43,048 nt of DNA from Brunnivagina elsteri CCALA 953 (lineage in GTDB: Bacteria > Cyanobacteriota > Cyanobacteriia > Cyanobacteriales > Nostocaceae): NCBI RefSeq assembly GCF_002289455.1, contig NZ_NTFS01000005.1, positions 1 through 43,048 of the forward strand, in the 5' to 3' direction. Numbering within the stretch: position 1 is the first letter of the stretch; each line of letters begins with the position of its first letter. The translations under genes and the position numbers were made by a program. Of this stretch, positions 25,761-40,596 are shown in pieces. Below the pieces are notes generated by a model. That model had not been told where the DNA came from. It worked only from the letters and a program-made list of their open reading frames with translations, and ran no database searches.

Positions 25761-25784
25761 ACGCAGAGGCGCAGAGACGCGGAG
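25761..25784. repeat. Short CGCAGAG-type dispersed repeat
   Basis: ACGCAGAGGCGCAGAGACGC with an adjoining GGAG is a unit dispersed widely in cyanobacteria. Other copies here are near 34560-34575, 39217-39233 and 40453-40476, and a longer composite one at 32180-32270 has become coding sequence. Confidence 0.7.
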
Positions 25785-29510: not shown

Positions 29511-29738
29511 ATGTTGCTACAAGAATTGCAGGAGCAAGTTTTCAAGTTACCACCAAGCGATCGCCTAGCGCTGGTAAGTGCCATTATTGAGTCTTTGCAA
29601 AATGATCTAATCCCCCAACCTAATCGCTCTAAAGCAATCCGTCGAATGCGCGGCTTGTTAAAAACAGATCAGTTAGCACCGACGGATGAAGAAGTGGCTG
29701 CAATGTTAGAAGAGGGACGAGCGGAGAAGTATCTGTAG
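29511..29738 (+). CDS. Putative VapB-like antitoxin
   Basis: The 75 residues begin with 'LLQELQEQVFKLPPSDRLALVSAIIESLQ', a helical pattern of small cyanobacterial antitoxins of the 'addiction module component' type, and end with a charged tail ('DEEVAAMLEEGRAEKYL') that should wrap the toxin. Its stop overlaps the GTG start of the PIN-domain gene by one base (TAGTG), which supports a toxin-antitoxin operon. Assignment rests on context and pattern; no classical AbrB or RHH fold is obvious. Confidence 0.75.
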   Translation: MLLQELQEQVFKLPPSDRLALVSAIIESLQNDLIPQPNRSKAIRRMRGLLKTDQLAPTDEEVAAMLEEGRAEKYL

Positions 29739-30145
29739 TGAGAGTTTTAATTGATACTAATATTGTCCTAGATTTTCTATTGCAGCGAGAGCCATTTTTC
29801 CAAGACGCAGAACTGCTGTTCCAAGCGATGGATTCTGGTCAAGTTGTTGGTTACGTAACGGCAACAACGCTAACGGACATTTTTTACATTGCTCGAAAAT
29901 ATACCCGTAGCCTTGAGCAAGCAAGGCAAGCAGTTTCAGAGACACTGACTGTTATGGCAATTTGTCCTGTTAATCGAGCAGTTTTGGAATCGGCGATCGC
30001 ATCTGGTTTGACAGATTTTGAAGATGCTGTTCAGATTTTTTGCGCCGTTGCTGAAGGCTTAGAGGCTATTTTGACACGCGATAAGCAAGGTTTTTTGAGT
30101 TCATCCATATCTGTGTTGTCAATTCATGAGTTGTTACAGCTTTAG
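29738..30145 (+). CDS. PIN-domain ribonuclease toxin (VapC-like)
   Basis: The 135 residues start with the PIN signature 'VLIDTNIVLDFLLQREP' (first catalytic Asp at residue 5), continue with 'VTATTLTDIFYIARK', 'SGLTDFEDAVQI' (second acidic cluster), and end with 'AILTRDKQGF' (last Asp). The acidic quartet is therefore present, giving a Mg2+-dependent RNase. It starts at GTG and is translationally coupled to the upstream antitoxin. The downstream coiled-coil reading frame begins within its stop region, in another frame. Confidence 0.86.
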   Translation: MRVLIDTNIVLDFLLQREPFFQDAELLFQAMDSGQVVGYVTATTLTDIFYIARKYTRSLEQARQAVSETLTVMAICPVNRAVLESAIASGLTDFEDAVQIFCAVAEGLEAILTRDKQGFLSSSISVLSIHELLQL

Positions 30146-31146: not shown

Positions 31147-32145
31147 ATGAAAGCAGTATTAATGACAGCAGCAGGAAACCCAGAGGTATTGCAACTACAG
31201 GAAGTACCAAAACCTTCTCCCCAACCAACAGAAATCTTAGTTCAACTAAAAGCCGCAGGAATCAACCCTATTGACACAAAACTCCGGCAACGTGGTACTT
31301 TTTACCCCGATAAAATGCCTGCAATTATTGGTTGCGATGGAGCGGGAATTGTCGAAGCTATCGGTGCAGAAGTGACGAAATTCCGCGTTGGTGATGAGGT
31401 ATACTTCTGTAATGGTGGATTGGGTGGACACCAAGGGAATTACGCCGAATACACTACCATTGATGAGAAATTTGCGGCAAAGAAACCGACTTCTGTCTCC
31501 TTTGCGGAAGCTGCTGCTGCTCCTTTGGTATTAATCACAGCTTGGGAAGCATTATACGATCGCGGCAGACTTGAACCTGGGGAAAAGGTATTAATTCATG
31601 CTGGTGCTGGTGGTGTGGGTCATGTGGCGATACAATTGGCAAAGCTCAAAGGTGCGATGGTTGCTACAACTGTGCGTTCCTCGGATAAAATTAGCTTTGT
31701 TCGACAATTGGGAGCAGATCAAGTCATCAATTCCCAGCAAACCGATTTTGTCCAAGCTGCTTTAAATTGGACGAATGGGGAAGGTGTGGGTTTACTATTT
31801 GATACTATTGGTGGGGAAATATTTTCTCAATCTTTTCCAGCAGTACGGGTATATGGGGATATTGTGACGATTTTGGAACCCGATGCAAACACTATTTGGA
31901 AGGTTGCACGTAACCGTAATCTCCGTATTAGCTTAGAATTAATGTTGACACCGATGTTGCAAGGAATGGTAGAAGTGCAACAATATCATGGGGAAATTCT
32001 CGAACAATGTGCGAGTTGGATGGATAGAGGAGAGTTAAAAATTCACGTTAGTCATGAGTTTCCGTTATCAGATGCAGCAAAAGCTCATCAATTACTTGAA
32101 AGTGGGTCAATGACAGGTAAAATTGTTCTACTAATTGATAATTAA
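31147..32145 (+). CDS. Zinc-independent quinone oxidoreductase-like MDR enzyme
   Basis: The 332 residues are a medium-chain dehydrogenase/reductase: a GroES-like N-terminal domain ('GINPIDTKLRQRG', 'GCDGAGIVEAIG', 'GDEVYF') and a Rossmann domain with 'HAGAGGVGHVAIQLAKL' at 151-167. The zinc-binding cysteines and histidine of alcohol dehydrogenases are absent, placing it with NADPH:quinone reductase-like enzymes, which reduce quinones or activated carbonyls. A Shine-Dalgarno AGGAG lies 8 bases before the ATG. The pentapeptide-repeat gene starts 16 bases after it and might be cotranscribed. Confidence 0.9.
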   Translation: MKAVLMTAAGNPEVLQLQEVPKPSPQPTEILVQLKAAGINPIDTKLRQRGTFYPDKMPAIIGCDGAGIVEAIGAEVTKFRVGDEVYFCNGGLGGHQGNYAEYTTIDEKFAAKKPTSVSFAEAAAAPLVLITAWEALYDRGRLEPGEKVLIHAGAGGVGHVAIQLAKLKGAMVATTVRSSDKISFVRQLGADQVINSQQTDFVQAALNWTNGEGVGLLFDTIGGEIFSQSFPAVRVYGDIVTILEPDANTIWKVARNRNLRISLELMLTPMLQGMVEVQQYHGEILEQCASWMDRGELKIHVSHEFPLSDAAKAHQLLESGSMTGKIVLLIDN

Positions 32146-32161
32146 TTAAAACACAATCAAG

Positions 32162-34477
32162 TTGGACGAATCATTGTTTAAACGCAGAGTTTCGCTGAGA
32201 AAAGCGCAAAGTCTCGCAGAGAAACTACTTCGCGTACCTCTGCGTTTTACCTCTGCGTACCTCTGCGTTTCACTAATTTCTCTATTTCTCCTCTTCTTCC
32301 CTCTTACCGCACAAGCACAATCGCAGATGGAACGGATACCCCTAACATTGGAATTATTGCAAGAACGACTGCATAATCCAATTTTACGTGAGGGTAATTT
32401 GACTCTAGATTTACGACAAATGACGATAGATTTACGACCAGAAAATTCAAGCTTTCGTGATGAATTTTATCAGGTTTTACGGAAGGAGTTACAAAAGGCT
32501 GGTGCGAAGTCTTTGGGTTTGGATTTGAGTAATTCACTGATTCAAGGTGATTTTATTGGTAGTGATTTGGGTATACGAACTACCATATATCCACAAGCAA
32601 TTTCACCAACTTTTTCCCCAATAGAACAGGAACAAATTGAACAATTACGCGGTGTTTGTTTAGAATTATTAGGAATGTCTTTACCAAGTTCTAAGGATTG
32701 CCGATCGCTATTAAGGAGTCAGGCAAATTTATCTAGCGATATTAGCGTTTTTCGCGGAACATTAACAATGCAACAAACGCGATTTAATGGTGCTGTTCAA
32801 TTTGCAAATACTTTTTTTCTCCAACCTATTGATGCACAGGGTGCTATTTTTAATCAATCTGTAAACTTTACTGAGACAAGGTTTGGTCGTGCAGCTAATT
32901 TTACTAATGTTTCTTTTCGCAGGGAAGTTCAGTTATTCAATAGTATTTTTTTTGATAGAACTGATTTTAAACAAACTCAATTTCAAGAAGGTGCTTATTT
33001 TCAAGATAGTAGTTTTCAAGAAAATGCTAATTTTACTCAAGCAAATTTTAAACAGTTAGCTAAATTTAGTCGTTCTACATGGTGGAAGAATGTGGATTTC
33101 TCCCAAGTACGTTTTGCTGGACAAACGCAATTTACTAGAAGTAATTTTAATCAGTTTTTATTGTTGACAGAAGCGACGTTTGAACAAGCTGTTACTTTTA
33201 GGGAAGCAAATTTCAAATTACCTGTGAATTTGCGAAGTGCGAGCATTTTAAATTTGGCTGATTTTAGCGATACTAATTTTACCAAGTCTGCTTATTTAAA
33301 TGTGTCGGGTTTGGGGTTTAACTCGAATCAAGCGAAGATTTTGGGAAATCCCGGTGAAATTGGCAAAATGCTTTCTGTTTCTGGGTTACAGGGGAATCAG
33401 AATGTTTTACGAAACTTGGTACAGAATTTTCGAGCGCTACAGCAAATTTCTGATGTTAACCAACTAGAATATACTAAGCAGCAATTACGTTTGATTGAAT
33501 TTGCTCGAAAATTATTTGGTACTAATATTAATACGGTTTCGGCAGAAAAATTAATTGATTTGGGTTTTTCTGCTGCACAGATAGAAGCGATTATTGAGCA
33601 TCGTCAAGAAGAACCATTTCGCGATCGCAGTGAATTACTTGCACTGCCTGGTATTGATTTTGATACGTATCTTCAAGTTAGTGATGAGCGTTTATCGGAG
33701 ATATTCCCCCAGGATAACCCAACACGAGTAAGTGAGAAACGAAGCCGCATCATAATCAGTGAACCTTTATTATTAGGTAGCTGGTTATTAACTGCTTGGA
33801 GTTGGTTTGCTTTATCCTTGTTGTTGCTGCTATCGGGATATGGTACGCAGGTATGGTTAGTATTTGGAGTGGGAATAATTGCGATCGCATTTTTTGGTAT
33901 CATCTATTGGTTGATAGATAGGTTTCGTCGTCTCCATCCAGTGCCAATTCTCCCTAATTCTTATGAAACTTATTGGATTTTAGGAAGTTTCTGCATTTTT
34001 AATATTATTGGATTATTAGCAATTTTTCGGAATGCCGAACAACCTTGGCTAACTTTGGGATGTTTGCTATTAATCATTTTGCCAATTCCGATAACTTTAA
34101 TTATTCGACTTTATAAAATTGGACGTTTTCACAATCAAATGGATATTTCCTATTTCACTGAAGATGGAACATTACGACAATTGCGTTTACTTATTGGACG
34201 TTTACCTGTGATTCCCAGAAATCCGTCTTTTCGTGAAAGATATATGCCAATATTATGGGATAGACGTTGGAATTGGTTAAATTATTTTGATTTTAGTTTG
34301 AATAATTTATTACGTTTAGGTTTCAATGATATTCGATTGCGGGATGAATATCTTCCTGGCATTATTTCCAGTTTGGCATGGTATCAATGGAGTTTGGGAG
34401 TACTTTATATCACTTTGCTTTTATGGACACTTTCCCGCACAATTCCTGGTTTGAATTTATTGATTTATTTGAAGTAG
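32162..34477 (+). CDS. Large exported/membrane protein: pentapeptide repeats, HhH motif and C-terminal membrane helices
   Basis: Up to 771 residues from the TTG at 32162; a second TTG is at 32174 and no ATG occurs before residue 56. Residues 30-53 form a signal peptide ending 'LTAQAQ'. Residues about 190-385 are pentapeptide-like repeats (A(N/D)FxxxxF), a right-handed beta-helix. Residues 450-520 hold 'INTVSAEKLIDLGFSAAQIEAII' and 'FRDRSELLALPGID', a ComEA-like double helix-hairpin-helix motif. Four or five hydrophobic segments follow (about 535-660 and 745-771). If exported, the repeats and HhH lie outside the membrane. The 5' end of the gene (32180-32270) consists of a dispersed repeat. Function unknown. 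Confidence 0.8.
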   Translation: MDESLFKRRVSLRKAQSLAEKLLRVPLRFTSAYLCVSLISLFLLFFPLTAQAQSQMERIPLTLELLQERLHNPILREGNLTLDLRQMTIDLRPENSSFRDEFYQVLRKELQKAGAKSLGLDLSNSLIQGDFIGSDLGIRTTIYPQAISPTFSPIEQEQIEQLRGVCLELLGMSLPSSKDCRSLLRSQANLSSDISVFRGTLTMQQTRFNGAVQFANTFFLQPIDAQGAIFNQSVNFTETRFGRAANFTNVSFRREVQLFNSIFFDRTDFKQTQFQEGAYFQDSSFQENANFTQANFKQLAKFSRSTWWKNVDFSQVRFAGQTQFTRSNFNQFLLLTEATFEQAVTFREANFKLPVNLRSASILNLADFSDTNFTKSAYLNVSGLGFNSNQAKILGNPGEIGKMLSVSGLQGNQNVLRNLVQNFRALQQISDVNQLEYTKQQLRLIEFARKLFGTNINTVSAEKLIDLGFSAAQIEAIIEHRQEEPFRDRSELLALPGIDFDTYLQVSDERLSEIFPQDNPTRVSEKRSRIIISEPLLLGSWLLTAWSWFALSLLLLLSGYGTQVWLVFGVGIIAIAFFGIIYWLIDRFRRLHPVPILPNSYETYWILGSFCIFNIIGLLAIFRNAEQPWLTLGCLLLIILPIPITLIIRLYKIGRFHNQMDISYFTEDGTLRQLRLLIGRLPVIPRNPSFRERYMPILWDRRWNWLNYFDFSLNNLLRLGFNDIRLRDEYLPGIISSLAWYQWSLGVLYITLLLWTLSRTIPGLNLLIYLK
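32180..32270. repeat. Composite CGCAGAG repeat forming the 5' coding end of the pentapeptide gene
   Basis: AAACGCAGAG (32180-32189) and CTCTGCGTTT (32261-32270) bound an imperfect palindrome with three tandem ACCTCTGCGT units (32236-32268). It is related to the intergenic copies at 25761 and 40453. Confidence 0.75.
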
Positions 34478-39043: not shown

Positions 39044-39275
39044 TATTCAGCTTCTTTAACAAAAATAATACAAATATACCATTAATAATAACTCTTTACG
39101 CCTCGCAAGTCGAAGTCATTACGACTATAATTTATTTAAGAGACAAAAAAAGTTACCCCATATATGGAGAATTTTGTAATTGGTGCGATACTCTCAATTC
39201 TAATTATGTAATTTCTCTGCGTCTCTGCGTGATGCAATTATCTCATTCATCTAAATCTAAATAAGGAACAAAAAT

Positions 39276-40412: not shown

Positions 40413-40596
40413 TGTGATGAATTTATTGTGTTTAGTCTAGATTAACTTATCTCACGCAGAGTCGCGGAGGCGCAGAGAGGAATATATAATATGTTTTAGA
40501 TGCTTAGTTTTGAGAAGAGTATTTATCGGCACTGAAATATTTTTTGGGAAGGATTAAGGTAAGGAGTTAATAATCAGAGTCGGTTAAGGCATTTGT

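Follow-up and report, generated by a model that had tools for sequence, protein, structure and literature searches.

A dispersed palindromic CGCAGAG repeat, conserved in frame, probably extends the signal peptide of a cyanobacterial pentapeptide protein

Rickettsia palindromic elements (RPE) are 105-146 bp long, form a long stem-loop and lie in frame within conserved genes where they are tolerated, and they are reported in 19 reading frames (PMC2229807). An RU-2/YPAL element of Yersinia is located within the predicted signal peptide of YPO1552 and is described as retained in both Y. pestis and Y. pseudotuberculosis (Delihas, 2007, PMC2759123), while cyanobacteria carry small mobile dispersed repeats (Elhai, 2008, as cited in PMC4390886). 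Among the papers surveyed, nothing was recognisably on the element described below or on a coding use of such cyanobacterial repeats, which is weak evidence of absence.

The locus analyzed here lies in a window (the whole stretch of DNA under analysis) of 43,048 nucleotides from the member of the Nostocales Brunnivagina elsteri CCALA 953, and contains a 96-bp composite of two inverted copies of a dispersed repeat of about 46 bp built on CGCAGAG, located near the start of a pentapeptide gene. Like RPE, this element is palindromic, forms a long stem-loop and sits in frame within a conserved gene, although at 96 bp it is slightly shorter; unlike RPE with their 19 reading frames, it occupies one gene, its composite form is not repeated among the own-genome matches listed, it forms the leader of the protein, and it occurs in two orientations. 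A search of 60 genomes with the N-terminal peptide, a short query of low sensitivity, returned 12 matches, 11 of them at the pentapeptide gene and the odd one (G049) with a stop, so the element was not encountered in several unrelated genes; since that feature of RPE is lacking here, we do not file the element as a member of the RPE family. Whereas the RU-2 insertion is described from two Yersinia species, the CGCAGAG element is found in many genera, the start codon, frame and charge could be followed here, and several other repeats were found in the same slot. The small dispersed repeats of cyanobacteria resemble it in kind, being small and mobile. The case likely works as the coding palindromes of Rickettsia and the Yersinia RU-2 do, with translation from a TTG codon; what is new is that the element exists in two forms, each the inverse of the other, and that four further dispersed repeats occupy its slot in other lineages.

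The pentapeptide gene (32162..34477, forward strand) encodes a protein of 771 amino acids with a putative signal peptide, Pentapeptide_3 repeats, an HHH_3 motif and, judged by eye, a hydrophobic C-terminal part; no NCBIfam model matched it at E ≤ 0.001. Upstream on the same strand is a quinone oxidoreductase-like gene (31147..32145), whose stop lies 16 nt before the TTG start codon at 32162..32164, and the end of the oxidoreductase gene precedes the pentapeptide gene start in many relatives too. The element spans 32177-32272, corresponding to codons 6-37, and encodes a basic stretch followed by the beginning of a hydrophobic core. Its left arm (32177..32223, forward strand) has heptamers spaced 10/12/10, specifies the basic n-region, and is 91% identical over 47 nt to its best other copy, while the right arm (32228..32272, reverse strand) is the same kind of unit inverted, with a spacing of 10/13/10, and ends in the LCVS of the core. 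The signal peptide inferred from these features comprises 52 residues (32162..32317), with cleavage after AQA placed by eye. Codon reading and a scan of charge and hydropathy bear out an earlier note on this DNA, which had proposed that the repeat encodes the basic n-region and runs into the hydrophobic core; its observation that an ATG is missing also holds for the stretch from the preceding in-frame stop to the mature part, and the first in-frame ATG is located after the presumed cleavage site.

The window holds 12 copies of CGCAGAG where 2.08 are expected (none of 100 shuffles reached 12), and five of the 12 heptamers lie at 32183-32267, within the first 106 bases of the pentapeptide gene. 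The region 32162-32300 contains a long hairpin with inverted arms and folds at -42.6 kcal/mol compared with -25.2 (sd 3.5) for shuffled sequences (z = -4.97, 0 of 200 as low). In the bacterium's own genome (7.0 Mb in 801 contigs), CGCAGAGNNNCGCAGAG with at most one mismatch was found at 92 places and its reversed control at none. A similarity search with 32162-32285, in which 40 of 55 candidates were scored, listed about 57 matches at E ≤ 1, located in query positions 8-65 or 57-113; each arm is thus dispersed separately, and no other match among those listed spans both arms, so the composite consists of two common dispersed units in opposed orientation, without a second own-genome copy among these matches. 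The dispersed matches begin at query position 16 (32177) or later, except for one weak match from position 8 (E = 0.03), which places the repeat edge 15 nt downstream of the first base of the TTG. The proposal that a dispersed repeat forms the N-terminal region is therefore upheld, with units scattered through the genome and both hairpin and inverted arms confirmed, and the start region is indeed a palindromic composite, but the start codon itself lies outside it.

Elsewhere in the window, CGCAGAG clusters at 25762..25784 (forward), 39215..39229 (reverse) and 40455..40477 (forward) are intergenic, as the earlier note had it; these clusters share the heptamer with the gene's element but not its layout (spacing 8 vs 10/12/10 in the left arm), and a lone exact heptamer at 2038 lies inside an ORF. 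Among other dispersed copies, overlap with an ORF of 120 aa or longer was seen at one of 26 places (29 loci were checked, three of them without a regex match, and some places share one array), and this overlap, at L088, is probably an over-extended ORF. At about 1486-1560 of that locus, an ATG inside the repeat extends the ORF into a dispersed copy, 19 codons ahead of a likelier in-frame ATG, an arrangement that can mislead start calling. In the alignment of the elements, inverted ends can be seen near TTTAAACGC. In genome G029, all 14 CGCAGAGGTNCGCAGAG places (L105-L118) lie within near-identical 115-bp elements that have TATAGCG...GCTATA ends and a CGCAGAG array inside, and which look like a recently spread MITE carrying the array.

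The pentapeptide protein is present in 33 of the 60 genomes searched (its own included) and also at 41 loci of named records; one near relative of the gene (88% identity) is L075, from the Calothrix sp. CSU_2_0 record. We collected 71 loci (L005-L075, of which L070 lacks the anchor) and built a tree of 63 rows, excluding L072 and L074 (partial), four duplicates and L068 (short). A row was classed as element-bearing when the DNA before the mature part held at least three family heptamers, a definition blind to frame, and 23 of the 63 tree rows qualified. The 25 element rows considered below are the window gene and 24 relatives, with the worn remnants L006 and L044 added by eye and genome G016 left outside, though its broken gene matches the element-type N-terminus; these rows share ancestry and are not independent. 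The element occurs in three parts of the tree (the Nostoc/Nodularia clade, the window's genus and G014), and its label changes six times, three of them forced by well-supported branches, for which one old insertion with losses and more than one insertion are both possible. Distant homologues do share the N-terminal residues, a result that the earlier note had counted as refuting its reading of a co-opted repeat, and they do so because the same element sits at the same place in them.

The start codon is TTG in 24 of the 25 element rows and GTG in one, always at the same offset, seven codons before the element's CGC-type codon, and in frame with the mature protein. The script that assigned starts took the first in-frame ATG, GTG or TTG that lies no more than 20 codons from the upstream stop and is followed, seven codons on, by a CGC-like codon; every one of the 25 rows has such a start, and L007, L027 and L047 have one more possible start ahead of it. 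In an alignment of 20 rows, the second and third bases of the start (T2 and G3) never vary. The suggestion that a TTG now serves as the start is thereby strengthened; the ATG after the cleavage site, also considered as a start, is not seen in other element-bearing rows. Of the 37 rows with fewer than three heptamers, 17 have TTG as the earliest in-frame start past the upstream stop, 12 have GTG and eight have ATG; without the worn L006 and L044, TTG is found in 15 of 35. This raw count covers 60 of 70 loci, the others being L032, L035, L036, L037, L040, L041, L068, L072, L074, and L075.

The start and the element end lie 78, 81, 90, 99, 102, 123, 141, or 147 nt apart, each value being divisible by three, where the end is the in-frame terminal arm (many rows have other matches to the loose motif, and the alternative in L044 is out of frame). 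These lengths require 10 changes on the tree, and 10-11 across 200 bootstrap trees. The frame used has stops in none of the 25 rows, while the other five frames of the element have stops in 25, 15, 25, 10, and 17 rows, or in 25, 4, 24, 5, and 6 when the outer 9 nt at each end are omitted. Forward frame +1 is thus stopped in 25/25 rows even away from the element's ends, and with the ends omitted forward +2 is stopped in 4/25, reverse +1 in 5/25, and reverse +2 in 6/25. Openness is therefore partly a default of the element, in which three other frames are mostly open, and this lowers our confidence in a translated in-frame insertion; an open frame as proof of coding is weakened once the ends are omitted. 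Constraint on amino acids was sought through codon positions in 15 related row pairs, which are not independent of one another, and was not found in the repeat part, where differences at positions 1/2/3 are nearly flat (54/76/84 in 1539 nt; 214 differences, 13.9%) compared with 919/530/2304 in the mature part. By this result, the residues of the repeat part themselves would matter little. Such a flat pattern fits an n-region and would also fit an untranslated stretch, and the main evidence pointing to translation is the kept frame.

In the n-region of a signal peptide, charge counts and sequence does not, and an n-region of 33 residues, as proposed here, is unusually long, a point against the translated insertion. 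A simple scan of charge and Kyte-Doolittle hydropathy gave a net charge before the core of +2 to +10 in 25/25 rows, and the best 15-residue window has a mean hydropathy of at least 2.19 in all 25. The features of a Sec signal peptide are present, namely a basic n-region, a hydrophobic core and an AxA-like site (the site placed by eye), whereas a twin-arginine leader was rejected by eye, the RR pair being missing in L006, L009, and L015. In the means of the 25 rows, each of the six frames of the element has a basic first half (+2.0 to +4.6) and a hydrophobic second half (mean hydropathy 0.44 to 1.55), a pattern that is strongest in the frame used. Since every frame of the palindrome gives, on average, a basic part followed by a hydrophobic one, its insertion, length changes in threes and inversion would all be tolerated.

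Comparison of the elements in forward and reverse-complement sense splits the rows into two classes, one of eight rows (L005, L007, L009, L013, L016, L018, L027, and L046) and one of 11 (L022, L024, L042, L043, L045, L047, L048, L050, L051, L065, and L071). Between classes, 73 of 88 pairs align better reversed, 10 better forward and five equally, with the exceptions clustered in L013, L046, and L065, and within classes 79 of 83 pairs align better forward; the classes were drawn by hand from the same score matrix, which makes these counts partly circular. The pair L007 and L024, for instance, scores 68 in the forward and 124 in the reversed comparison. L006, L015, L025, L020, and L021 are hard to place, L044 was left out, and the element end of L020 was set differently here and in the six-frame scan. 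A mark independent of the matrix is a one-base gap, which lies in the left arm of seven clean rows of the first class and in the right arm of eight clean rows of the second (with L021), covering 15 of the 20 aligned rows, the other five having larger gaps there; this is where an inversion in place would put it. On the tree, a single orientation change suffices for the 19 clearer rows (as in 185 of 200 bootstrap trees), and all 24 assigned rows need four, compared with a mean of 8.2 and a minimum of four in 500 shuffles, some of which reach four. The two forms apparently arose by inversion in place, the alternative being re-insertion in the opposite sense. L042 and L065 are close relatives with opposite hairpin loops, TTTTTT in one and AAAAAA in the other, and here the loop alone appears to have flipped.

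Lineages without the CGCAGAG element hold other dispersed sequences between start and core, identified by matches within their own genomes (E ≤ 0.001). The insert of L010 has at least 40 matches in G007, and those of L039, L019, and L049 have at least 20, at least 37 (mostly to the middle part) and at least 39 in their own genomes, counts to which the query locus itself and some matches on both strands contribute. When the four inserts and the CGCAGAG element were compared mutually, no match was better than E 0.37. Translation of the inserts in L010, L019, L039, and L049 is less certain since later start codons are present there. In addition, the CGCAGAG element of L043 and L045 is itself interrupted by short in-frame inserts, which we take to be possible small dispersed repeats of cyanobacteria. 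We tentatively suggest, at somewhat less than even confidence, that the leader slot is a landing site for palindromic selfish DNA, with five mutually dissimilar repeats in the same gene and a CGCAGAG palindrome that could be inverted in place as a working signal peptide.

The explanation we consider probable for the window gene is an old translated in-frame insertion that lengthened the signal peptide, with the start at TTG 32162. The gene would start at this old TTG shortly after the oxidoreductase stop, probably through translational coupling, and a Nostocales ancestor would have gained the palindromic CGCAGAG pair in frame, five codons past the start and before an existing hydrophobic core. 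Translation of the units would yield a long basic n-region and the first hydrophobic residues of an extended Sec-type signal peptide of about 52 aa, and the insertion would have been tolerated because a palindrome that is basic then hydrophobic in six frames keeps a usable leader through length changes in threes or inversion. The element's position, frame and start codon are kept across the rows, and translation, export and coupling are what these sequence patterns suggest. We regard it as unlikely, but deserving of weight, that the repeat is instead an untranslated leader, with translation from an internal CTG, TTG, or GTG just before the core. In the window gene, a CTG inside the repeat (codon 27, 32240) would give a leader of normal length, 21 of 25 rows offer at least one ATG, GTG, TTG or CTG in the stretch from codon 7 to the core, and the flat codon-position pattern agrees with this explanation. 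However, in 18 of the 25 rows the stretch that begins at codon 7 and ends at the core is free of ATG, GTG and TTG, and in four of the 18 it is free of CTG as well: L006, L024, and L051 have no internal candidate at all, and L025 has none by the cut-off, its TTG at codon 27 lying just inside the core window. Moreover, the frame to the upstream TTG was kept through at least 10 length changes.

Retention of the element as an RNA or DNA hairpin, acting as an attenuator or initiation aid with coding incidental, appears improbable to us. Many rows have a strong hairpin (z down to -10.1), and the repeat part differs less (13.9%, as above) than mature third positions (2304/9176, 25%), but the hairpin is absent or weak in L006, L018, L020, and L044 (z +0.6 to -1.0, 60 shuffles each). 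Conserved RNA structure was likewise rejected as weak in a 20-row consensus of 11 pairs at -3.58 kcal/mol with a covariation term of -0.07, a test weakened by aligning both orientations together. The earlier note had favored a start overwritten by the repeat, or else a silenced gene. A recent overwriting that leaves the gene silenced or barely expressed would accord with the lack of an ATG, the rare start codon, the strong hairpin soon after it and a late frame change in the near relative L007. We give it very little credence: the TTG lies upstream of the repeat edge and TTG or GTG is kept across relatives, which argues against the replacement of an original start, while the element is common to several genera and the mature part shows strong third-position bias between element-carrying rows. 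The frame has been kept across genera through many length changes, which speaks against silencing, and silencing in this one strain is improbable.

If the translated insertion is true, it offers a route by which repeated DNA becomes lasting protein sequence, in a region where signal peptides need little beyond charge and hydrophobicity. Arginine-rich codons on one arm of a palindrome tend to give hydrophobic codons on the other, and this complementarity of arms yields a testable prediction of where coding repeats survive. In repeat-rich cyanobacteria, open frames alone are an insufficient basis for start calls.

Several further features were observed among the homologues and in the window. In L007 and L075, the reading frame switches at about residue 720 and identity with the window protein is then 100% to the end, reflecting either a real gene change or an assembly error. 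At G016:C1:1176686-1177536, the homologue is fragmented with several stops, its N-terminus being 60% identical to the element-type leader and open over 101 aa. The match at G034:C1:3517316-3517888 covers only the last ~190 residues, in an open frame of 199 aa, and is possibly a truncated or split gene. Within the window, 29511-30145 holds two small adjoining ORFs with a 1-base overlap, the second of which looks PIN-type toxin-like by eye, and which we presume may form a toxin-antitoxin pair.
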